From: an uncultured Bacteroidota bacterium
GTDB lineage: Bacteria; Bacteroidota; Bacteroidia; Bacteroidales; 4484-276
Direction of reading: 5' to 3'
Length of the DNA stretch: 49,117 nt
Assembly: GCA_903944895.1 (NCBI GenBank)
Contig: CAJATL010000315.1
Coordinates: forward strand, 1-49,117
Part shown: one piece after another, positions 5,279-48,416 of the stretch
Numbering within the stretch: position 1 is the stretch's first letter
Layout: every line of letters begins with the position of its first letter
Program-made: the position numbers and the translations under genes
Notes under the pieces: generated by a model
The model's input: the letters and a program-made list of their open reading frames with translations, nothing else
What the model was told of the DNA's origin: nothing
Databases searched by the model: none

Positions 5279-7087
5279 ATGGCAACAAGCGTACAGAACA
5301 TCATCGAAAAGTACAATAAGGACAAAACCAGACTCATGGATATCCTTATTGATGTTCAATCAGAACGGGGGCACATTCCAAAAGCAACAATCACACAGAT
5401 TGCCAATGCTTTGGATATCTCACATGTTGACGTGGAGCAGACAATGTCGTTTTATCATTTTTTCTCAGACAAACCTACGGGTAAATTCGCCATCTACCTT
5501 AACGACAGTGCAGTGGCCAACATGATGGGGCGTCAAAAGGTTAAGGAAACCTTCGAAAATGAAACCGGAATTAAGTTTGGGGAAGTAACACCCGATGGTT
5601 TGATTGGATTGTTCGACACCGCATGCATCGGGATGAACGACCAGGAACCTGCTGCCCTGATTAATGGCCAGGTTTTTACAAACCTCACTCCTTTCAGGGT
5701 TAAAGAGATTGTTCGTGATATCAAAGCAGGCAGGCCACTTGATGATATGTTTACTGCTGCTTACGGCGACGGAGAAAACCGCAATGAACTTATCAAATCG
5801 GTTGTAGTGAACAACATCCGAAAAAAAGGTCCTATTTTGTCAGAAGACTATACACCGGGTATCGTAATCTGGAAAAAACTTCCACAAATGTCGCCGGAAC
5901 AGGTAATTGATGAAATTAAAAAATCGAACATCAGAGGTCGGGGCGGCGCTGGTTTCCCAACCGGATTAAAATGGGAGTTTTGCCGTAAAGCACAGGGCGA
6001 AAAGAAATATATTTTCTGCAATGCCGATGAAGGCGAACCTGGAACTTTTAAAGACAGGGTTATCCTAACCGAACGCCCAAAACTGTTGTTCGAAGGAATG
6101 GTAATCGCAGGTTACGCAGTTGGTGCGAGCGAAGGGATTGTTTACGTACGACATGAATATAAATATCTGCAGAAATATCTCGAAAACCTCTTGCAAGGCG
6201 CACGCGACCGCAATTTGCTGGGTAAAGATATTGGCGGAATCAAAGGTTTCGATTTTGATATCCGCATCCAGTTTGGAGCCGGAGCTTACGTTTGTGGCGA
6301 GGAATCGGCACTTATCGAATCGGCTGAAGGCAAACGTGGCGAACCCCGCGACAGGCCACCATTCCCCGTCGAAAAAGGTTATCTCGACATGCCAACCGTT
6401 GTAAATAATGTTGAAACACTTTGCGCTGCTGTTAAGGTTTTACTCAATGGTGGCGATTGGTACCGGAACTTTGGAACCAAAGATTCGACAGGAACAAAAT
6501 TATTGAGTGTTTCTGGTGATTGCAAATATCCGGGCGTTTACGAAGTTGAATGGGGATTTTCGGTTAGTGATATCCTCGAAATGGTTGGCGCAGATGAAAA
6601 ACAGGTACAGGCTGTGCAGGTTGGAGGTCCTTCAGGCTCAATCATAGCTCCCAACGAGTTTAAAAGAAGTGTTTGTTTTGCCGATCTTGCAACGGGTGGA
6701 TCACTCATAATCATTGGCCATCATCGTGATATCCTGACTGACATCGTGCTGAATTTTACTGAGTTTTTCATCGAAGAATCCTGTGGATCGTGTTCAACAT
6801 GCCGCAATATTCCTTATCTGATGAAAAATAAACTGGAGAAAATCCTTGATGCAAGAGGTGTCAAAAAAGACATCGACGACCTGGTTGCATGGGGAAAGAT
6901 TTTAAAAGTAAGCCGTTGTGGCCTCGGACAAACTGCCGGGAATCCTATCCTGACAAGCATCAAAAATTTCAGGCATTTATATGACGAGAAAATCCAGAAA
7001 GACAAAGATTTCGACAGCGCTTTTGATATGTCACTTGCAGTTAAAGAGTCGTGCATCGCTGCAGGAAGAATTCCAACATTGAATTAA
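5279..7087 (+). CDS. hoxF: NAD-reducing hydrogenase diaphorase subunit HoxF
   Basis: 602-aa flavoprotein that exchanges electrons with NAD(H) in the bidirectional [NiFe]-hydrogenase HoxFUYH. Residues 1-155 are a NuoE/HoxE-like thioredoxin-fold domain; residues 175-600 are NuoF-like. Visible sites: GRGGAGFPTGLKW at 220-232 (FMN), NADEGEPGTFKDR at 248-260, GAGAYVCGEESALIES at 333-348 (NADH region), and a [4Fe-4S] site at C502, C505, C508 and C547. The N-terminal domain keeps only one of the four NuoE [2Fe-2S] cysteines (C116), so it should bind no cluster; this is also the state of the soluble hydrogenase HoxF of Ralstonia, which has the same overall length. First gene of the operon, with hoxU 37 bp downstream. 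Confidence 0.93.
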   Translation: MATSVQNIIEKYNKDKTRLMDILIDVQSERGHIPKATITQIANALDISHVDVEQTMSFYHFFSDKPTGKFAIYLNDSAVANMMGRQKVKETFENETGIKFGEVTPDGLIGLFDTACIGMNDQEPAALINGQVFTNLTPFRVKEIVRDIKAGRPLDDMFTAAYGDGENRNELIKSVVVNNIRKKGPILSEDYTPGIVIWKKLPQMSPEQVIDEIKKSNIRGRGGAGFPTGLKWEFCRKAQGEKKYIFCNADEGEPGTFKDRVILTERPKLLFEGMVIAGYAVGASEGIVYVRHEYKYLQKYLENLLQGARDRNLLGKDIGGIKGFDFDIRIQFGAGAYVCGEESALIESAEGKRGEPRDRPPFPVEKGYLDMPTVVNNVETLCAAVKVLLNGGDWYRNFGTKDSTGTKLLSVSGDCKYPGVYEVEWGFSVSDILEMVGADEKQVQAVQVGGPSGSIIAPNEFKRSVCFADLATGGSLIIIGHHRDILTDIVLNFTEFFIEESCGSCSTCRNIPYLMKNKLEKILDARGVKKDIDDLVAWGKILKVSRCGLGQTAGNPILTSIKNFRHLYDEKIQKDKDFDSAFDMSLAVKESCIAAGRIPTLN

Positions 7088-7124
7088 CCAGTTATCAATT
7101 TAGAACAAAAGAAAAATTCATAAT

Positions 7125-7829
7125 ATGAGCACATTAGTAAAATTTAAAATTGATGGTGTTGAATGTATGGCCGAAACCGGCACCTACATTGTTGAAGCTG
7201 CCCGCGAGAATGGAATTTATATTCCGACACTTTGCAACATCAGAGGCGTAAAACCAAGAGGATCGTGCCGGATTTGCACAGTGCTGGTCAACGGACGTCC
7301 GATGACTTCATGCACCACTCCTATCACCGATGGGATGGAAATCGAAAATAACACCGCCGAAATTAATGATATCCGCAAGGCTATTGTTGAGGTTTTATTT
7401 GTAGAAGGCAACCATTTTTGCCCATCCTGCGAAAAGAGCGGCAACTGCGAACTTCAGGCACTCGGATACCGTTTCAAAATGATGGTTCCACGCTTCCCTT
7501 ACAATTTCCCAAAAAGGGAAATTGATGCATCAAATCCAAAAATCATCAAAGATCATAACCGCTGCATCCTTTGCAAACGCTGCATCAGAGCCATAAAAAC
7601 CGACGATGGCAAAACAGTTTTTGCATTTAAGAAAAGAGGTTTGCATCTCGAAATAAATGTTGACCCTGAAATGGGCGATAAATTTACGGATGAAATGGCC
7701 GTTAAAGCTTCCGAAATTTGCCCTGTTGGCGCAATTTTGCTCAGGGAAAAAGGCTACCAGATTCCGATAGGAAAACGTAAATACGACCATGTTGAAATTG
7801 GAAGCGACATTGAAAAAATTAAAATTTAA
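7125..7829 (+). CDS. hoxU: NAD-reducing hydrogenase Fe-S subunit HoxU
   Basis: 234-aa iron-sulfur protein, homologous to the N-terminus of NuoG, which wires the HoxF flavin to the hydrogenase dimer. Three cluster sites are complete: [2Fe-2S] by C37, C48, C51 and C63; a His-Cys3 [4Fe-4S] by H97, C99, C102 and C108; and a Cys4 [4Fe-4S] by C147, C150, C153 and C199 (followed by PVGAIL). Length is that of HoxU proteins. No export signal, so cytoplasmic. The gene sits between hoxF and hoxY with 37- and 12-bp gaps. Confidence 0.93.
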   Translation: MSTLVKFKIDGVECMAETGTYIVEAARENGIYIPTLCNIRGVKPRGSCRICTVLVNGRPMTSCTTPITDGMEIENNTAEINDIRKAIVEVLFVEGNHFCPSCEKSGNCELQALGYRFKMMVPRFPYNFPKREIDASNPKIIKDHNRCILCKRCIRAIKTDDGKTVFAFKKRGLHLEINVDPEMGDKFTDEMAVKASEICPVGAILLREKGYQIPIGKRKYDHVEIGSDIEKIKI

Positions 7830-7841
7830 GGAGAAAAAAAT

Positions 7842-8390
7842 ATGAGTAAACCTATAGTTGCCACAACATCCCTGGCCGGTTGTTTCGGTTGTCACATGTC
7901 GGTTTTGGATATCGACGAAAGAATCCTCGATTTAATCGAACTCGTCGAATTTCACAAATCACCCATCGACGACATTAAAAAATTTACAAAGATGTGCGAC
8001 ATTGGCCTGATTGAAGGCGGATGCTGCAACAGCGAGAATATCCACGTGCTGAAAGATTTCCGCAAAAATTGTAAAATTCTTGTTTCGGTTGGCGAATGTG
8101 CTATCATGGGCGGACTTCCTGCTTTGCGCAATGGAATTCCTATCCAGGAATGTCTCGACGAAGCTTATCTGAATGGCCCGTCGGTTGGACGAAACAAAAA
8201 ACACATTATGCCCAACGATGACGAACTCCCAATGATTTTGGACAGGGTTTATCCTTGCCACGAAATTGTAAAAATTGATTATTACCTTCCGGGATGCCCG
8301 CCAAGTGCCGAGTTGATCTGGAATGCACTGGTTGCTTTGGTTACCGGCGACGAACTTAAATTACCTTATGAAGTTGTGAAATTCGATTAA
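7842..8390 (+). CDS. hoxY: [NiFe]-hydrogenase small subunit HoxY
   Basis: 182-aa small subunit carrying the single proximal [4Fe-4S] cluster. The ligands are C14 and C17 (GCFGCHMS), C86 (VGECAIMGG) and C152 (PGCPPSAE). Its short length and lack of a Tat signal are typical of group 3d cytoplasmic hydrogenases. A strong Shine-Dalgarno-like AAGGAG (around 7828-7833), overlapping the hoxU stop region, sets the start at 7842; such a sequence is uncommon in this phylum and could give high or coupled translation. Confidence 0.93.
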   Translation: MSKPIVATTSLAGCFGCHMSVLDIDERILDLIELVEFHKSPIDDIKKFTKMCDIGLIEGGCCNSENIHVLKDFRKNCKILVSVGECAIMGGLPALRNGIPIQECLDEAYLNGPSVGRNKKHIMPNDDELPMILDRVYPCHEIVKIDYYLPGCPPSAELIWNALVALVTGDELKLPYEVVKFD

Positions 8391-8406
8391 TATTAAAAAT
8401 ACTAAA

Positions 8407-9858
8407 ATGGGACAGAAAATAACAATAGAACCTGTAACCCGGGTTGAAGGCCACGGTAAGGTTACCATTCATTTAGACGAGAAAGCAAATGTTCGTCAGA
8501 CACGCCTGCACATTGTCGAATTTCGCGGTTTCGAGCGGTTTGTTCAAGGCAGACCTTATTGGGAAGCACCCGTGCTTGTCCAGCGTCTATGCGGAATTTG
8601 CCCGGTAAGCCACCATCTGGCAGCAGCCAAAGCCCTCGACGTGATTGTTGGAGCCGGAACCGGCGATGGCCTCACTCCTACCGGCGAAAAAATGCGCCGC
8701 CTCATGCATTATGGACAAATGTTCCAGTCGCATGCCCTCCATTTTTTCCACCTCGCTTCTCCTGATCTTCTCTTTGGTATCGACAGCGATCCTTTGATGA
8801 GAAACATCATCGGTGTTGCTTTGAAACATAAAGATCTGGCCGTTCAGGGTGTGATGATGCGTAAATTCGGACAGGAAATCATCAAGGTCACAGCAGGAAA
8901 GAAAATTCACGGAACCGGAGCTATCCCGGGTGGCATCAATAAAAATTTATCCGTCGAAGAGCGGGATACTTTCCTTAATGGAGCCGATCCGATGAATATC
9001 GATAAAATGGTTGACTGGGCGCAAGCCGCCGTTGATCTTTTTAAAGATTATCACAAAAACAATAAAGAACTCATCGATACCTTTGCGGCATTCCCATCAA
9101 GCCACATGAGCCTTGTACGAAAAGACGGTGCGATGGATCTTTATCATGGCGTTTTAAGGGCTGTTGATGCTGATGGCAAGAAAATCCTCGACGATATCGA
9201 TTATCAGGATTACCTTAATTATATCGAGGAAGACGTAAAATCATGGAGTTACATGAAATTCCCTTACCTGATTCATCTCGGCGCCGAAAACGGCTGGTAC
9301 CGTGTTGGACCATTGGCAAGGCTTAACACCTGCGATTTTATCCCAACACCGCTTGCGCAGAAAGAATTTGAAATCTTTAAAGCTTACACCAACGGCAAAC
9401 CTAACAATATGTCGATGCACATGCATTGGGCGCGGTTGATCGAGCTTTTGCATTCAGGCGAGATGATCAGAGATTTGCTCAACGATCCGGACCTTCAAAA
9501 AGATGACCTTGTAATAAAAGGAACAAAATGCAACGAAGGTGTCGGGTTAATTGAAGCACCGCGCGGGACCCTGTTCCACCATTATCGCATCAACGATCAG
9601 GACCAGATCACCATGGCCAACCTCATTGTTTCGACAACCCACAACAACGAACCGATGAATCGTGCGGTAAATAAAGTGGCTGTTGATATGATGACCGGAC
9701 ACAAAGAAATTACCGAAGGCATGATGAACGCAGTTGAAGTGGCCATCAGAGCTTACGATCCCTGCCTGAGCTGCGCAACACACGCCATCGGCCAGATGCC
9801 TCTGGAAATTTCATTGTACGATGCCAACGAAAATCTCATCGAACAGAAAAGATCATAG
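8407..9858 (+). CDS. hoxH: [NiFe]-hydrogenase large subunit HoxH
   Basis: 483-aa catalytic subunit that holds the Ni-Fe(CN)2CO site and splits or forms H2. The L1 motif RLCGICPVSHH supplies C62 and C65; the L2 motif DPCLSCATH supplies C453 and C456. The 24 residues after H459 are the C-terminal extension normally removed by the dedicated protease after nickel insertion; the protease gene follows directly. N-terminal RVEGHGKVTIHL is the usual family start. Together with hoxFUY this defines a group 3d, NAD(H)-coupled bidirectional enzyme. No hyp maturation genes lie in the window, so they must be elsewhere. Confidence 0.95.
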   Translation: MGQKITIEPVTRVEGHGKVTIHLDEKANVRQTRLHIVEFRGFERFVQGRPYWEAPVLVQRLCGICPVSHHLAAAKALDVIVGAGTGDGLTPTGEKMRRLMHYGQMFQSHALHFFHLASPDLLFGIDSDPLMRNIIGVALKHKDLAVQGVMMRKFGQEIIKVTAGKKIHGTGAIPGGINKNLSVEERDTFLNGADPMNIDKMVDWAQAAVDLFKDYHKNNKELIDTFAAFPSSHMSLVRKDGAMDLYHGVLRAVDADGKKILDDIDYQDYLNYIEEDVKSWSYMKFPYLIHLGAENGWYRVGPLARLNTCDFIPTPLAQKEFEIFKAYTNGKPNNMSMHMHWARLIELLHSGEMIRDLLNDPDLQKDDLVIKGTKCNEGVGLIEAPRGTLFHHYRINDQDQITMANLIVSTTHNNEPMNRAVNKVAVDMMTGHKEITEGMMNAVEVAIRAYDPCLSCATHAIGQMPLEISLYDANENLIEQKRS

Positions 9859-15087: not shown

Positions 15088-15861
15088 ATGATAAATCAAG
15101 AAAATACTGATAAGATAAGGGTTTCCGTTGTTTCTTACATCAATTCATTCCCGTTTATTTATGGAATTATGAATTCGGCTCTGATGGAGAAAATCGTTCT
15201 CACAGATGACATACCTGCTGTTTGCGCCCGGAAATTAATAAATAACCAGGCCGACCTGGGTTTAGTGCCGGTGGCCATTCTTCCGCTCCTGCCCCATTAC
15301 GAAATCATCGGAAATTATTGTATCGGTGCTGTGGGTCCGGTTAAAACGGTCCTTTTGCTTTCGCAGGATAATCCTCATCATCTGCACACCATTTATCTCG
15401 ACAGCGAATCCCGAACCTCGGTGCAGTTGATCAGAATTATCGTGAATGAGTTTTGGAAAAAAGAGGTTATCTGGAAGGATCTGGCTGATTATTCAGGGAA
15501 TTACGATGAGCTAGGCACAGGCTTCGTAATGATTGGTGATAAAACCTTTATTCATGCGCCAAAATTCAGATTTGTGACTGATTTGGCCGGGGAATGGCAG
15601 AATCAAACCTCCCTCCCATTTGTTTTTGCCTGTTGGGTTGCTAACAAAAAACTGCCTGATTCCTTTGTTTCGGAGTTCAACCAGGCTATCGAAACCGGCA
15701 TTTATAACCGGAAAGATTCCATCGTCCTCTCAAAAAATACCGCCATCTCAAACGAAGTGATGATCGACTATCTCGAAAACTCGATCAGTTATGATTTTGA
15801 TGATAAGAAACGAGAGGCTTTGGATTTGTTTCTTGGCTATTTAAAAGCCAAAAGGCTGTAA
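15088..15861 (+). CDS. mqnA: Chorismate dehydratase of the futalosine menaquinone pathway
   Basis: 257-aa MqnA/MqnD-family protein with a periplasmic-binding-protein-like fold but no signal peptide, so cytoplasmic. It dehydrates chorismate to 3-enolpyruvylbenzoate, the first step of the futalosine route to menaquinone. Family motifs: RVSVVSYINSFPFIYG at the start, the QADLGLVPVAILP strand, LDSESRTSVQLIRI and the GDKTFIHAP segment, with FVFACWVANKK near residue 193. Menaquinone would be the quinone for the membrane Hdr-like protein elsewhere in the window. It converges with yidC, separated by a hairpin. Confidence 0.9.
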   Translation: MINQENTDKIRVSVVSYINSFPFIYGIMNSALMEKIVLTDDIPAVCARKLINNQADLGLVPVAILPLLPHYEIIGNYCIGAVGPVKTVLLLSQDNPHHLHTIYLDSESRTSVQLIRIIVNEFWKKEVIWKDLADYSGNYDELGTGFVMIGDKTFIHAPKFRFVTDLAGEWQNQTSLPFVFACWVANKKLPDSFVSEFNQAIETGIYNRKDSIVLSKNTAISNEVMIDYLENSISYDFDDKKREALDLFLGYLKAKRL

Positions 15862-43211: not shown

Positions 43212-43925
43212 ATGCTGACGATTTATGATCAACTAATGCAGGATGTTCGCATTGTGGAGGGATTGAAATCCTGCATGAATTGCGGCGTTTGCACTGCTAT
43301 TTGTCCTGCTGCCGAATTTTACCACTACGACCCGCGAATGTTGGTTACCATTGTTCAATCGAGGGACGAAGAACGCCTTTTAGAACTGCTTAAAAGCGAA
43401 ACCATCTGGTATTGCGGGCAATGCATGTCGTGCAAATCCCGCTGCCCGAGAGGAAATGTTCCCGGACTGGTGATTATGGGCCTGCGGTATCTTTCTCAAA
43501 AGTTAGGCTATTTCGTCGAATCTGAAAAAGGAAGACAACAATTTGCCATCAAGCGCACGGTTGGTGATAATATTCTAAAATTTGGATATTGTGTTTATCC
43601 CGATTCGGTGGTTCCGGAATTACACCCTGAACAAGGCCCTGTGTGGGATTGGGCTTACCAACATCTCGACGAAATTTACGATCGGATGGATGGAAATTAC
43701 AAGAAAGAGGGTCCGGGAGTTTTCCGGAAAATTTCTGTCGAAACCCTCGATGAGTTAAAAGAAATCTTTAAAGTTACCGGTGGCTCGGATTTGTACCAGA
43801 AAATAGAGGAATTTTCAGAAATCAAAGCTGCCGAAATGGGCATCAATTTTGGCCCGGGCACCGACAACGATTATTTCAGGCATACCTATTTTAGCAATAA
43901 CGGCGAACATACACGCGAAGAATAA
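43212..43925 (+). CDS. hdrC1: Heterodisulfide-reductase-like subunit HdrC1 (di-[4Fe-4S] protein)
   Basis: 237-aa soluble iron-sulfur protein. Two complete ferredoxin motifs are present: C21, C24, C27, C31 (CMNCGVCTAIC) and C68, C71, C74, C78 (CGQCMSCKSRC). Beyond residue 100 it has an unusual long tail with HPEQGPVWDW, KEGPGVFRKISVETLDELKEIFKVTGG and a final GEHTREE, which to my memory matches HdrC1 of sulfur-oxidation sHdr clusters better than methanogen HdrC; this should be tested. It relays electrons within the predicted HdrCBA complex. First gene of a five-gene operon, 8 bp before hdrB1. Confidence 0.85.
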   Translation: MLTIYDQLMQDVRIVEGLKSCMNCGVCTAICPAAEFYHYDPRMLVTIVQSRDEERLLELLKSETIWYCGQCMSCKSRCPRGNVPGLVIMGLRYLSQKLGYFVESEKGRQQFAIKRTVGDNILKFGYCVYPDSVVPELHPEQGPVWDWAYQHLDEIYDRMDGNYKKEGPGVFRKISVETLDELKEIFKVTGGSDLYQKIEEFSEIKAAEMGINFGPGTDNDYFRHTYFSNNGEHTREE

Positions 43926-43933
43926 AAAGTAAT

Positions 43934-45025
43934 ATGGAAAATACGTCAAAAAAAATCATCTGGAAAGAATATCAAAAGGAAATCGCTGACGACCATTTCT
44001 TTTATGTCAGAAGTTGCATCAGACAGACCTTTTTTCCAGGATCTGAAAGCTTTTTTCTCAAATTTATGCGCGACGAATTAGGCAAAGATGTCTTTGAAGA
44101 TGCCCGTCATACAACCTGCACAGGCATTGGATTCCATGGAGACGTGGTGCCACAGGATACCATCATGACCGTTGTTGCGCGCCATTTCGCACTGATGACA
44201 GAAGCTGGTTATAAAAATATTGCAATTTCCTGTGTGACCTCTTTTGGCATTTATTCCGAAATTCTCGAAACCTGGAAACATTTCCCCGAAATCGAAGTGC
44301 GAATCAGGGAAAGCCTGAAAAAAGCAACCGGCAGGGAGTTTGAAATCCCTGAAACCATCGCCCACACCTCTGATATTATCTACAAATTCAGGGATGAAAT
44401 TGCAGCAAAAGCCAGATTTCCGCTAATCAATAAAAATACAGGCGCTCCTTTAAACATTGTCGAACACATCGGTTGTCACTATTCTAAAATGTTTCCTGAA
44501 TATGGCGTTGGCGGAGCCGAATTCCCGCAAGTTTTGGTCGGGATGATTAAAGCCTGGGGAGGAAAAGTGATCGATTATCCTGAGCGCCGCCATTGCTGCG
44601 GGTTCGGATTCAGGCAGTACCTCATTCAGGCAAACAGGGGGTATTCGGTTTCAAACTCCAAAAAGAAATTCGATTCGATGAATCCATACAAACCCGATGC
44701 GATAATTGCAAATTGCCCTGGATGCTCCATGTTTATGGACAAATGGCAATACACCATTGCTGAGATGGAAGGAACAACTTATGGAAATGAAGGTTTGGGT
44801 ATTCCGGTGCTGACCTATGAAGAATTTGCGGGACTGGTTTTAGGCTACGACCCCTGGGATCTGGGTTTGCAGATGCATCAGGTGCAGATCGAAACATTGC
44901 TCGATAAAATGGGAATTCCTTATGACGCGTCAAAAAAATACAAAACAAAGGATGGTAAAGATATTGGGCAACCAGTAATTCCGGATTTACTTAAAGTTGG
45001 CCAAACAATACACTCATGCTGTTAA
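43934..45025 (+). CDS. hdrB1: HdrB-like subunit with one degenerate CCG domain
   Basis: 363-aa soluble protein of the CCG family that in HdrB holds non-cubane [4Fe-4S] clusters at the disulfide-cleaving site. The second CCG domain is intact: C181, C221-C222-G, C261-x-x-C264. The first is not: it keeps C28, then C62-T-G instead of CCG, and C100-V-T-S instead of CxxC, leaving three of five cysteines. One normal non-cubane cluster is therefore expected. The final residues are HSCC. Partner of HdrC1 and HdrA by operon position; the true substrate is unknown. Confidence 0.82.
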   Translation: MENTSKKIIWKEYQKEIADDHFFYVRSCIRQTFFPGSESFFLKFMRDELGKDVFEDARHTTCTGIGFHGDVVPQDTIMTVVARHFALMTEAGYKNIAISCVTSFGIYSEILETWKHFPEIEVRIRESLKKATGREFEIPETIAHTSDIIYKFRDEIAAKARFPLINKNTGAPLNIVEHIGCHYSKMFPEYGVGGAEFPQVLVGMIKAWGGKVIDYPERRHCCGFGFRQYLIQANRGYSVSNSKKKFDSMNPYKPDAIIANCPGCSMFMDKWQYTIAEMEGTTYGNEGLGIPVLTYEEFAGLVLGYDPWDLGLQMHQVQIETLLDKMGIPYDASKKYKTKDGKDIGQPVIPDLLKVGQTIHSCC

Positions 45026-45062
45026 AAGGTTTCAGGATGATTAATTTTTCGAAATTCATTTT

Positions 45063-46100
45063 ATGATCCAAAACAAAATTGCAGTTATTGGCGGTGGTAT
45101 CGCCGGAATGGAAACAGCAATCCAGCTTGACCGGCTTGGCTATTCGGTTGATTTAATCGAAAAAGAAAATGCACTGGGCGGCCATGTGAAAAATTGGTTC
45201 AAACTCTTCCCAGACCGCAGGCCTGCAAGCGAAATTCTCGAAATCCTGTTTTCGAAATTAAAGCTGTCAAACGTCAATATAAAAACATCGGCAATCATCA
45301 AATCTTTCGAAAACAAAAACGATAAAATCCTTCTTTACGACCATGAAAATGAAGTAAAATCGTATGATGCGCTTGTTTTATGTACGGGTTTTGATTTGTT
45401 TGATGCAAGACGCAAGGAAGAATACGGTTTTGGAATTTATGAAAATGTCATCACTTCAGCCGGACTGGAAGAGTTGTTTACCACGGGCGAAATCAGGACT
45501 AAACAAGGGAATATTCCAAAGCGGGTCGGTATTGTCCACTGCGTTGGTTCACGCGATGAGCAGTGCGGAAACCATTATTGTTCGAAATCATGCTGTGTGA
45601 GTGCTGTGAAGCAGGCTATCGAAATCCGTGAAATGCTTCCGGCTACCGAAGTATTTTGTTTTTACATGGACCTGCGCATGTTTGGGCCTCATTATGAAGA
45701 ATTATACCGCGAATCCCAGGAAAAATGGGGCATTCAGTACATTCGTGGCCGTGTTTCGGAAGCCGCCGAAAATGCCGATGGAAGTATTCAGGTTAAAGCT
45801 GAGGACACCCTCACAGGTCGCCCCTTAAAAATGAATGTTGATATGCTCGTTTTGATGGTCGGAATGGAACCCGGAAAAGATACGCAGGAAATAGCTCGTG
45901 AGTTATCGTTAAAAACAGGCGATAACAGGTTTTTCAGGTCGTCGGATGAACATTATCATACAAACTTTTCGGGACAGCATGGAGTGTTTTTTGCCGGAGC
46001 TGCTTCGGCACCCATGAATATCACCGATTCGATTAACCATGCAAGGTCTGCCGTTTTGGAAGTCGATAAATTTTTAAAGGGAAAATTAACCTCCAATTAA
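45063..46100 (+). CDS. hdrA: HdrA-like FAD protein, short form
   Basis: 345-aa flavoprotein. The FAD-binding start is IAVIGGGIAGMETAIQL; an HdrA-type cysteine cluster follows: C160 (HCVGSRDEQ), C168, C173, C177 and C178 (YCSKSCC). It lacks the N-terminal insertion and the two C-terminal ferredoxin modules of methanogen HdrA (over 600 aa), so it matches the length of sHdrA-type proteins. No bifurcation partner such as MvhD or FlxABCD is encoded nearby. It would pass electrons between a bound flavin and the HdrC/HdrB iron-sulfur chain. 37 bp after hdrB1. Confidence 0.85.
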   Translation: MIQNKIAVIGGGIAGMETAIQLDRLGYSVDLIEKENALGGHVKNWFKLFPDRRPASEILEILFSKLKLSNVNIKTSAIIKSFENKNDKILLYDHENEVKSYDALVLCTGFDLFDARRKEEYGFGIYENVITSAGLEELFTTGEIRTKQGNIPKRVGIVHCVGSRDEQCGNHYCSKSCCVSAVKQAIEIREMLPATEVFCFYMDLRMFGPHYEELYRESQEKWGIQYIRGRVSEAAENADGSIQVKAEDTLTGRPLKMNVDMLVLMVGMEPGKDTQEIARELSLKTGDNRFFRSSDEHYHTNFSGQHGVFFAGAASAPMNITDSINHARSAVLEVDKFLKGKLTSN

Positions 46101-46109
46101 TTATTCATT

Positions 46110-46478
46110 TTGGAAACACCTGAAAATAATAAAACCCGGTTTGGATTTGGCCTGACGAAAGGCCGGCAAATTGATTACGACGCCAACGACAAAAAACTCT
46201 GTCGGTTTGTTGTCGAAAATGAGCCATCGCTGCTGTTGTGCATCGGTTGCGGAGGATGCACGGCCACTTGCACCGCAGCAGGTTTTACCGATTTTAATTT
46301 CAGGAAACTTCATCATTTACTCCGGCGCGGCGAAGTCTTCAATCTCGAAAAGAGCATGAAAAACTGCATGCTCTGCGGCAAATGCAAACTTGTTTGTCCA
46401 CGCGGGGTAAATACCCGAAATGTGATTTTTTCACTAAAACGGGCTTTTAAAATGACTGATTTTTCGAAAACCCAGTAA
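46110..46478 (+). CDS. hdrC2: HdrC2-like di-[4Fe-4S] protein
   Basis: 122 aa. Two cluster motifs: C44, C47, C50, C54 (CIGCGGCTATC) and C86, C89, C92, C96 (CMLCGKCKLVCPRG). No hydrophobic segment. The only plausible start is the TTG at 46110, since no ATG precedes the first cysteine in this frame and it begins 9 bp after hdrA. It probably links HdrA to the membrane-anchored subunit that follows after 78 bp. Confidence 0.82.
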   Translation: METPENNKTRFGFGLTKGRQIDYDANDKKLCRFVVENEPSLLLCIGCGGCTATCTAAGFTDFNFRKLHHLLRRGEVFNLEKSMKNCMLCGKCKLVCPRGVNTRNVIFSLKRAFKMTDFSKTQ

Positions 46479-46556
46479 ACAAAACTTAAAATTCATGGTC
46501 AAAGCTTTGATGAAAATTGGACAATCTGAACCTTTCAAATACATTTTTGAGCTAAG

Positions 46557-48416
46557 ATGAAATACTACGATCCGTTTATTTTGCCTTTTACCATTGGCCT
46601 TTATTTCATTTTTACTTTTTTGGTTGTAAAATATGCAATCTGGATTTTCCGTCTCCCCAAACCAGATCTCATAAAAATTGGAAAAGGATTTTTTACGGTA
46701 AAAACCTTTTCGGCAACTAAGGAAGTTTTCATGGAAAGCCTCCTGCATCGCAAGGTTTTCAAGGTAAATCCGGTGTTAGGATACATGCACATGAGCCTTG
46801 CAATGGGTTGGTTTTTGCTTATTCTCTTTGGAAAAATCGGGACCTTATCCTTTAGCCAGGATTTCTTTAACCCTGTTCACTATGCCATTTTCTTTAAATT
46901 TTTCGAACCTGAGGATCCACATTTCTTCTACTCGAAAACGTATTATTTTTTAATGGATACTTTCCTGCTTTTTATACTTACAGGGGTAGGACTGGCGGTA
47001 TTCAAAAGATTCAGATCAAAAATTTTTGGGTTAAAGAAAACCACAAAAACAAAATTGGGCGATAAGTTTGCGCTTTCGGCATTGTGGCTGATTTTCCCTT
47101 TCAGGCTATTGGCAGAGAGTTTTACCAGCGGATTGCACCATTCGGGGCATTATCTCACCGGCAGCCTTGGTATTTTCTTTGCAGGATTTTTACCCCTCGA
47201 AATGCTTGTTTATCCTTCCTGGTGGGCTTACAGCCTGGCGCTGGGCGTTTTTTTTGTGGCCTTGCCATTTTCCCGCTACACGCACATCCCAACCGAGATG
47301 TTCCTGATTTTCCTGCGGAATTATGGGATTAAAACCGGAAATGAATTTTCGGGTTTCAGCCAGGCAGAAATCCTTTCCTGCTCTCGTTGTGGAATTTGTA
47401 TCGATAAATGCCAATTGACGGTTGCAGGTTGTGAAAATGCCCAACCTGTTTATTTTTTACAGGATTTAAGAAACAACGAACTAACCCCTGAACTTGCCAT
47501 GAACTGCCTCCAGTGTGGGCGGTGTGAGGAGTTTTGCCCCGTTGGCATCGACATCAAAAAGCTTCGACTGATCCCCCGAAATGAACTGACCTCCGATAAT
47601 GCTGATTTCGGTTATCTGCCTGCTGCCGAAACCCGGAAGGCTGAAGTTGTTTTCTTTGCAGGTTGTATGACGCATCTTACACCTGGCATAAAAAAAGCCA
47701 TGAAAAATATCCTTGACCAGGCTGAAATTGATTATTGGTTTTTGGATGAAGATGGAGGAGTTTGCTGCGGAAGGCCGCTGATTCTTGCCGGTGAGATGGA
47801 TTCTGCGCGCCAACTGATCGATTACAACCGGAAGTTGATTTTCGACTCAGGGGCAAAAATCCTGGTCACCTCCTGCCCTATTTGCTTAAAAGTGTTTAAA
47901 AAGGAATATCATCTTGATGTCGAAATCCTGCATCATTCTGAGTTTATCCTGCGACTTGTCGAACAAGGACAAATCAGGTTGAATAAACAGCTCACGAGAA
48001 TTGCTTACCATGATCCTTGTGAACTTGGAAGAGGAAGCGGAATTTATGATGAACCTAGAAATCTGATTAACAAAACCGGAACGCTTGTCGGATCGGAAAC
48101 CGAAAGAGAACAAGCATTGTGCTGTGGCAACAGCCTGGGAAGTTTCCGGTTATCGGCCGCTCACGCCGATCATATCATGAAAGATGCCCTGGATTCGTTG
48201 TCAACCGGTAATCCCGATATTTTGGCAACTTCATGCCCTCTATGTAAAAAGACCTTTTCGAAAGCCGGAAAAATTCCTGTAAAAGACATTGCGGAACTTA
48301 CCGCAGAAGCGATGTCCAGCAACAAAGATTCGATTCCTGAAAAGAAAGATTTTCCGGAAAAAAATATGGATTTTGCTGAATGCCGTGTATGTGAGTTGGA
48401 AGAAGAAATTATTTGA
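46557..48416 (+). CDS. Membrane-anchored HdrE/HdrD (DsrMK, EtfD-like) fusion
   Basis: 619-aa fusion protein. Residues 1-250 have about five membrane helices (8-31, 74-96, 128-150, 169-190, 203-240) of the NarI/DsrM/HdrE type with histidines suited to heme b and quinone binding (H78, H108, H194, H195, H198, H243). Residues 270-330 hold two [4Fe-4S] motifs (C275, C278, C281, C285; C317, C320, C323, C327). Residues 365-565 hold two complete CCG domains (C370, C403-C404-G, C440xxC443; C488, C522-C523-G, C560xxC563). The architecture is that of EtfD/FeSBCP and fused HdrED, which connect soluble donors to menaquinone. A further CxxC occurs near the C-terminus (C609, C612). Last gene of the operon. 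Confidence 0.85.
   Translation: MKYYDPFILPFTIGLYFIFTFLVVKYAIWIFRLPKPDLIKIGKGFFTVKTFSATKEVFMESLLHRKVFKVNPVLGYMHMSLAMGWFLLILFGKIGTLSFSQDFFNPVHYAIFFKFFEPEDPHFFYSKTYYFLMDTFLLFILTGVGLAVFKRFRSKIFGLKKTTKTKLGDKFALSALWLIFPFRLLAESFTSGLHHSGHYLTGSLGIFFAGFLPLEMLVYPSWWAYSLALGVFFVALPFSRYTHIPTEMFLIFLRNYGIKTGNEFSGFSQAEILSCSRCGICIDKCQLTVAGCENAQPVYFLQDLRNNELTPELAMNCLQCGRCEEFCPVGIDIKKLRLIPRNELTSDNADFGYLPAAETRKAEVVFFAGCMTHLTPGIKKAMKNILDQAEIDYWFLDEDGGVCCGRPLILAGEMDSARQLIDYNRKLIFDSGAKILVTSCPICLKVFKKEYHLDVEILHHSEFILRLVEQGQIRLNKQLTRIAYHDPCELGRGSGIYDEPRNLINKTGTLVGSETEREQALCCGNSLGSFRLSAAHADHIMKDALDSLSTGNPDILATSCPLCKKTFSKAGKIPVKDIAELTAEAMSSNKDSIPEKKDFPEKNMDFAECRVCELEEEII

Follow-up and report, generated by a model that had tools for sequence, protein, structure and literature searches.

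What complex do five adjacent genes of the heterodisulfide reductase (Hdr) type encode in a Bacteroidota genome, and where would its electrons come from and go? The genes, here called C1, B1, A, C2 and M, lie in a 49,117-nucleotide stretch of DNA from an uncultured member of the Bacteroidales (the window). The window spans the entire contig C315 of a genome of 7.17 Mb in 424 contigs, 96.39% complete. A preliminary description of the window had read the five as genes for two HdrC-like proteins, an HdrB-like protein, a short HdrA and a membrane protein with CCG domains. Five adjacent co-directional genes in the order C1-B1-A-C2-M are indeed present, all on the plus strand (Table 1). They recall the sHdr complex of sulfur oxidizers (Hyphomicrobium denitrificans and others), encoded by hdrC1B1A-hyp-hdrC2B2 together with lbpA. 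The electron exit of sHdr is unsettled in the available parts of two papers, one proposing that some electrons leave via lipoate on LbpA to NADH (PMC6067878) and the other, in Acidithiobacillus models of an Hdr-like complex, that they leave to the quinol pool (PMC6335251). A variant with no sign of LbpA and with a built-in membrane subunit would separate the core sulfur chemistry from the electron exit.

The five genes form a conserved unit

A B1 scan of genome contigs confirmed 509 relatives, and the counts of gene order were made on the best 80, the loci closest to the window B1. The complete set stood in the order C1-B1-A-C2-M at 73 of these 80 loci; the other seven loci were cut short by a contig end lying no more than 400 bases from the last detected gene, and a different order was observed at none (0/80). 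These counts rule out a chance neighbourhood. M followed C2 in all 73 complete loci, and the gap between A and C2, which is 9 bases in the window with no hyp gene there, exceeded 400 bases in just three of the 73. The related loci belong to Bacteroidales and other Bacteroidota, mostly as metagenome-assembled genomes, and include the cultured and named Butyricimonas synergistica DSM 23225, which has all five genes, and Butyricimonas sp. Marseille-P3923. Median identity to the window proteins over the 80 loci was 73% for B1, 60% for C1, 53% for C2, 52% for A and 50% for M, and by this measure B1 is the most constrained of the five proteins.

Co-occurrence was similarly tight. Among 295 genomes of the order, B1 was found in 91, M in 89 and both in 88; 92 genomes have at least one of the two. 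Three genomes carry B1 without M (G459, G636 and G651; those three loci were not inspected), and M without B1 was found in G023 alone, where a contig end truncates B1 (L041). Among 59 relatives, a full-length short HdrA (at least 42% identity) and M (at least 42%) occurred in the same 17 genomes, hereafter the carriers, including one (G001) in which just a piece of M is present, at the end of a contig. In G047 no short HdrA was detected, and a piece of M lies at the end of contig C76 (L146 7861-8563), with the C-terminal half of the protein in two overlapping frames, from a frameshift, decay or an assembly error. Fisher tests of co-occurrence gave p values of 2e-70 and 6e-14, computed over related genomes that are not independent. 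A phylum-wide draw of 395 genomes returned B1 at E 1e-40 only from the window's own genome; among the genomes listed for this draw, just five others belong to the same order.

The pairing of B1 with M holds even where the operon is split, as in G012 (B1-A on contig C3 and C2-M on contig C98; C1 of this genome was not searched for), or permuted, as in G585 (C1-C2-M-B1-A), which supports the presence of both proteins in one complex. The linkage seen in the preliminary description thus extends to relatives, in gene order as well as in co-occurrence, and from these gene patterns it is likely that the five proteins assemble into one complex.

The soluble core is of the sHdr type

In model searches, C1 and C2 matched HdrC two-cluster models, B1 matched HdrB, A matched HdrA models, and M matched CCG proteins of the LdhH, TfrB, GlpC and DsrK types. 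All five proteins scored far under the curated cut-offs set for the listed named models; for A, the best HdrA model gave 264 bits against a cut-off of 1100.

We compared A with 6tjr, which we take to be the sHdrA of Hyphomicrobium. Residues 5-332 of A were colinear with residues 3-334 of 6tjr, i.e. over the full length, with 36% identity over 325 aligned residues. Methanogen HdrA was matched mainly in the core, plus a short match at the N-terminal nucleotide-binding motif, and A did not match the methanogen-type full-length HdrA with its flanking cluster domains. In a 36-row tree, A fell into a 16-row clade with 6tjr and the A protein of Picosynechococcus (support 99/92). Long HdrA-like rows of the same order lay outside this clade, three of them adjoining it with weaker support (91/76). 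The branch of 6tjr, the sole sHdrA sequence in the tree, is long, and its exact joining order is uncertain. The cluster cysteines C160, C173, C177 and C178 of A are kept at 98–100% in 54 sequences, namely the window and those 53 of 96 loci that have all five open reading frames (ORFs) at the expected length; this set underlies all conservation counts given here. We assign A, by full-length match and tree placement, to the short HdrA proteins of the sHdrA clade, in agreement with the short HdrA first described.

C1 contains two CxxCxxCxxxC motifs (C21-C31 and C68-C78), and its C127 and H138 are also invariant. C1 and C2 each keep eight cluster cysteines at 98–100%, one cysteine of C2 being at 98%. 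B1 was compared with Picosynechococcus B1, one Acidithiobacillus plasmid protein and methanogen HdrB. Its C-terminal noncubane site is complete (C181, C221, C222, C261 and C264). In the degenerate N-terminal site, only C28, C62 and C100 are invariant, along with H68; (T/S)C and CxT(S/T) replace the CC and CxxC of methanogen HdrB, and the lost cysteines correspond to T61 and S103. S103 aligns with HdrB Cys81 (matched via alignment numbering), described in the available part of PMC13083937 as the bridging cysteine of the first catalytic cluster. Picosynechococcus B1 has a like degenerate site, and complete sites are found in Picosynechococcus B2, methanogen HdrB and M. Because of these conserved cysteine patterns, we class B1 as a one-site type and M as a two-site type. 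The identification of B1 as HdrB-like in the preliminary description is therefore correct at the level of the family, with the correction that just one of its CCG sites is complete. A structure model of B1 (mean predicted local distance difference test score, pLDDT, 82.9) matched the fold of methanogen HdrB 5odc_B with a template-modelling score (TM-score) of 0.85 by target length. The B1 tree had very long branches and carries no claim.

A B1-like degenerate N-terminal site was also seen in an HdrB-like protein encoded on the Acidithiobacillus ferrooxidans NFP31 plasmid (L144 3150-4490), where the neighbouring genes encode a GcvH-annotated protein, hemerythrin-domain proteins and a DUF2249 protein.

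M is a one-chain membrane protein with two complete CCG sites

Domain searches and a structure model (mean pLDDT 90.2) placed a dicluster ferredoxin domain and two CCG domains of M behind a helical N-terminal domain. The eight ferredoxin cysteines and the ten CCG cysteines are kept at 98–100%, both five-cysteine sites being complete, and H64, H78, H243, Trp85 and Phe232 are invariant. The best fold match was EtfD of M. smegmatis (9ojn; query TM-score 0.70), followed by a LutA model and HdrB chains.

EtfD, the mycobacterial electron-transfer flavoprotein (ETF):menaquinone oxidoreductase, is like M a single chain with a membrane part, two ferredoxin clusters and two CCG domains. According to the available part of PMC13083937, a threonine replaces the second cysteine of the first CC pair of EtfD, which makes the first cluster a linear [3Fe-4S] cluster, while His583 of a CxHC motif completes the second cluster, called non-catalytic by the authors; His78 and His241 are the heme ligands, and a putative quinone lies near Phe85 and Phe230. 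M resembles EtfD in overall fold but carries Cys404 and Ile442 at the positions of Thr539 and His583 of EtfD (alignment and conservation), and its operon has no ETF genes: etfAB was not found in the window flanks, and no ETF was recognised among the neighbour families listed. An EtfD-type ETF oxidoreductase was ruled out, as M lacks equivalents of Thr539 and His583. H78/H243 and Trp85/Phe232 of M are near the heme and quinone residues of EtfD in residue number, which is a match of numbers and not of an alignment.

The operon differs from known Hdr-type complexes

The operon shares the subunit order C1-B1-A-C2 with the sHdr complex, and differs from it by a membrane fusion in the place of B2, a C2 of only 122 amino acids, the absence of a hyp gene and the lack of a GcvH-family protein in three carriers. 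A soluble B2 was not present in the operon at the 73 complete loci; elsewhere, only PF02754 in the window's own genome was searched, and those matches were not examined. Picosynechococcus sp. PCC 7003 carries on a 253-kb plasmid (L038 10128-15868) the order C1-B1-A-C2-B2, followed by a flavoprotein whose best model is sulfide:quinone reductase (SQR; 83 bits, far under the cut-off of 525). Its A and B1 are 46% and 41% identical to those of the window. This cluster is like the operon in its C1-B1-A-C2 order and degenerate B1, and unlike it in having a soluble two-site B2 and an SQR-like protein rather than M. The Picosynechococcus gene order, together with the cysteine patterns, supports the earlier suggestion that M fills the HdrB2 slot. 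The annotation of the plasmid cluster does not go beyond general Fe-S, HdrB-related and FAD terms.

HdrDE of methanogens consists of an HdrE membrane part and an HdrD two-site part. M is like HdrDE in its two complete CCG sites; unlike HdrDE, M is one chain, not two, and would work with an HdrA/B1/C1/C2 core. CoM-S-S-CoB would not be expected in these bacteria. QmoABC combines parts like HdrA and HdrC with a membrane subunit linked to quinone; it has two HdrA-like chains and no noncubane sites. With the QmoC model, C1 scored 42 bits against a cut-off of 300, and with the DsrK model, M scored 73 bits against a cut-off of 400; QmoABC and DsrMKJOP were rejected on these scores. In G037, two HdrA-like genes next to a QmoC-like one, which scores 202 bits with a cut-off of 300, fall outside the A clade. 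With the cut-offs missed so widely and the EtfD-specific residues absent, the proteins stand outside QmoABC, DsrMKJOP and EtfABD, and the impression of a layout not recognisable as a characterised complex is upheld. We conclude from sequence comparison that the operon encodes an sHdr-type core and, where soluble B2 would stand, a single-chain membrane subunit like HdrD/HdrE; this sHdr variant is apparently an uncharacterized membrane complex.

The usual partners of sHdr are not associated with the operon

LbpA is described as essential to sHdr, with inevitably associated genes (PMC6067878), and as present in nearly all genomes that carry shdr (PMC10332631; available parts in both cases). A GcvH-family search of the window contig gave no match, and the family was wholly unmatched in three of the 17 carriers (G015, G029 and G058, which are 98, 99 and 94% complete). 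By reading of the match list, none of the 17 carriers has a second small free-standing GcvH-like protein. Extra GcvH-like domains were present in the window's own genome, G001 and G033, within proteins of ~240 and 560–590 amino acids, and weak partial matches in G033, G053 and G054. In the own genome these are proteins of 239 and 587 amino acids (contig C21, 24143-27381; L140 and L141), next to genes that by eye encode a ferredoxin-type and a polytopic membrane protein. Neither the large GcvH-like proteins of the own genome and other carriers nor the weak partial matches were counted as LbpA. Pairs of ~240 and 560–590 amino acids also occur in G001, G005, G010, G018, G024 and G033.

TusA was found in 7/17 carriers (not in the other 10) versus 15/42 non-carriers, and DsrE in 9/17 versus 20/42; the own genome had no TusA match and one DsrE match. 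Neither TusA, DsrE nor GcvH absence was associated with the operon in this comparison of 17 carriers with 42 non-carriers. The canonical sHdr-LbpA system was rejected, LbpA being missing and hyp and soluble B2 being missing from the operon. The sHdr-type core seems, from its gene content, to work here without its usual partners.

C1-B1 pairs also occur without the other subunits

A second B1 was found in 11 of the 91 B1-positive genomes. Of nine such paralogue loci taken up, the ORFs were viewed at eight (L183 and part of L182 were left out), by eye except at L189 (Pfam) and L177. C1 was visible at seven of the eight (L181 starts inside B1), and A, C2 or M stood beside the pair at none. NifX-like genes were seen by eye at 7/8 loci and Mrp/MinD-type ATPases at 5/8. 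The six pairs of Table 1 have NifX-like genes, most of them with DUF134-like, MinD-type ATPase, Mrp, radical SAM or corrinoid adenosyltransferase genes as well. In G498, the pair adjoins genes for DUF134, DUF5320, NifX-like and CGGC proteins, MinD-type ATPases with ferredoxin inserts and a corrinoid adenosyltransferase. In G037 (contig C67; L177 2193-19315), the order is QmoC-like, two HdrA-like, two TusA, a YeeE/TsuA-like transporter, rhodanese-like proteins and the C1-B1 pair. The G037 context favours a sulfur role, and the NifX/MinD-type context of G498 does not.

A tentative electron route and its rivals

We propose one membrane-bound complex in which a soluble sHdr-type core (C1, B1, A and C2) would be docked on M. 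A thiol or sulfane sulfur (persulfide) would be oxidized at the single complete noncubane site of B1, and electrons would flow from B1 through the C1 clusters, the flavin adenine dinucleotide (FAD) of A and C2 to M, a wire read from the conserved motifs. In M, an HdrE/NarI-like membrane part would be combined with two ferredoxin clusters and with a pair of noncubane sites like those of HdrD, and the clusters and heme b of M would pass the electrons on to menaquinone. M would take the place held in sHdr sulfur oxidizers by soluble HdrB2 and perhaps LbpA. Of the separate parts of this proposal, the link to quinone is probable, a sulfur or thiol substrate is favoured somewhat less firmly, and the direction leans slightly toward oxidation. 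As a whole, a membrane sHdr-type complex that oxidizes thiol or sulfane sulfur into menaquinone is the best explanation we can offer, and we put it forward tentatively. More tentative still is the wider picture: a lipoate-independent, quinone-coupled respiratory complex of the sHdr type, widespread in one Bacteroidota order, to which the cultured genus Butyricimonas belongs. In this picture an HdrE-HdrD fusion would stand in for both HdrB2 and LbpA, the oxidation of thiol or sulfane sulfur would feed menaquinone directly, and the C1-B1 half would also exist by itself, as a cassette within islands of metal-cluster and sulfur genes.

The window's own genome encodes two PF02621 proteins (MqnA/MqnD type, futalosine pathway), one in the window (at 15115-15846, within 15088-15861) and the other on another contig. 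Several observations weigh against the proposal. Menaquinone markers (menA or PF02621 above cut-off) are no commoner in carriers (13/17) than in non-carriers (34/42), which by itself speaks neither for nor against a menaquinone link, and the carriers G012 (99% complete) and G001 (84%) match neither, although G012 might conceivably scavenge quinones; in G045 and G052 only menA-like matches under cut-off were found. TusA and DsrE are not enriched in carriers, as detailed above, and the own genome is without a TusA match. The heme reading of M relies on residue numbers, not on an alignment with the membrane part of EtfD. No family beyond the five genes was present at more than 35 of 96 neighbour loci (one genome is included twice, as L039 and L058), the commonest, at 35/96, being a protein of ~1,230 amino acids that by eye looks like PurL; with no such partner family, the neighbours name no substrate. 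Finally, among the eight paralogue loci viewed, sulfur genes occur only in G037.

The strongest rival is the same complex running in reverse, with menaquinol reducing a disulfide, persulfide or polysulfide in the manner of HdrDE, which we consider unlikely. The two complete Hdr-type sites of M and its best folds (EtfD, the LutA model and HdrB chains) are consistent with such a reductase, and a quinol-driven disulfide sink would be plausible in anaerobes; the order of the carriers consists mostly of anaerobic bacteria. However, the HdrA with which A groups is of the sulfur-oxidizing type, and an HdrDE-like reductase would require the M part alone, leaving the soluble core unexplained.

There is a small chance that the FAD of A splits electrons by flavin-based bifurcation or confurcation, with menaquinone or a disulfide on one side and ferredoxin or NADH on the other. 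HdrA proteins of methanogens bifurcate, and B1-C1 and C2-M could form two branches round one flavin. Against this, A is without the flanking cluster domains of bifurcating HdrA and groups with 6tjr, and among the window ORFs the operon includes no gene for an NADH or ferredoxin module. Equally improbable is a module with little energy role that would serve detoxification or repair, for example scavenging of sulfide or reactive thiols or upkeep of metal clusters. In several genomes the C1-B1 paralogues stand with Fe-S carrier-type ATPases and NifX-like proteins, and the Hdr genes of Black Sea isolates have been suggested to ease sulfide toxicity (PMC11129491, available part); yet we recognised none of those ATPases in the list of families neighbouring the five-gene operon, and the membrane subunit and electron wire suggest respiratory coupling. 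Ordinary sHdr-LbpA sulfur oxidation with the lipoate protein encoded elsewhere is very improbable: the C1-B1-A-C2 order, the sHdrA-type A and the extra GcvH-like domains of G001, G033 and the own genome would fit it, but with GcvH unmatched in 3/17 carriers, soluble B2 not in the operon and TusA missing in 10/17, it is contradicted unless the lipoate carrier belongs to a different family; the glycine-cleavage H protein could serve only the other 14 carriers.

If oxidation into menaquinone by an sHdr-type membrane complex is the correct reading, the operon may be a new route for electrons between sulfur compounds and the membrane, and would add a respiratory complex to a large bacterial group, judging by the 91 genomes with B1 among the 295 sampled from the order. 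Among Hdr-like complexes generally, the idea has precedents in two of its parts: the quinol exit of the Acidithiobacillus models and the membrane-bound Hdr-like complex reported, in the part of the source available, for Aquifex aeolicus. No description of the five-gene set was found in the literature on Hdr in Bacteroidota groups (titles and abstract starts among the matches listed, with most subscription journals outside), nor was a paper on heterodisulfide reductase in Butyricimonas. The Black Sea study reports a complete heterodisulfide reductase gene set in isolates that apparently include Lentimicrobiales, and its available part mentions neither gene layout nor a membrane subunit (PMC11129491).

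Genomic context

The operon stands alone in the window. Its flanking genes, both on the opposite strand, encode a Dpp5-type peptidase upstream and a DUF3108 protein downstream. A scan for promoters and terminators was uninformative, with nine promoter-like sites versus 10.9 expected and nine terminator-like sites versus 5.7 expected.

Table 1. Positions of the operon genes and CCG domains in the window, and of C1-B1 pairs at other loci
Feature	Position	Strand	Description and basis
C1	43212-43925	+	HdrC1-like, 237 amino acids; ORF call, HdrC models, conservation in 54 sequences
B1	43934-45025	+	HdrB1-like, 363 amino acids; ORF call, HdrB models, alignment, conservation, structure model and fold match
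CCG (PF02754) match of B1	44465-44737	+	sole match, in the C-terminal half; Pfam search
A	45063-46100	+	short HdrA (sHdrA type), 345 amino acids, FAD/NAD Rossmann fold; ORF, models, 6tjr match, tree
C2	46110-46478	+	short HdrC2-like, 122 amino acids, two [4Fe-4S] motifs; TTG start as called, exact start uncertain
M	46557-48416	+	membrane HdrE-HdrD-like fusion, 619 amino acids; ORF, models, structure model, EtfD fold match
First CCG domain of M	47646-47897	+	C370, C403, C404, C440, C443; Pfam and conservation
Second CCG domain of M	48000-48257	+	C488, C522, C523, C560, C563; Pfam and conservation
C1-B1 pair without A, C2, M	L178 8791-10578		by eye
C1-B1 pair without A, C2, M	L179 9105-10858		by eye
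C1-B1 pair without A, C2, M	L180 9708-11479		by eye
C1-B1 pair without A, C2, M	L182 from 8962		by eye
C1-B1 pair without A, C2, M	L189 3064-4808		by eye; Pfam
C1-B1 pair without A, C2, M	L190 8307-10670		by eye

Elsewhere in the window (5279-9858) are apparent genes of a soluble NAD-type [NiFe] hydrogenase, encoding a fused NuoE/NuoF-like protein, a protein like the N-terminal part of NuoG and a nickel hydrogenase large subunit.

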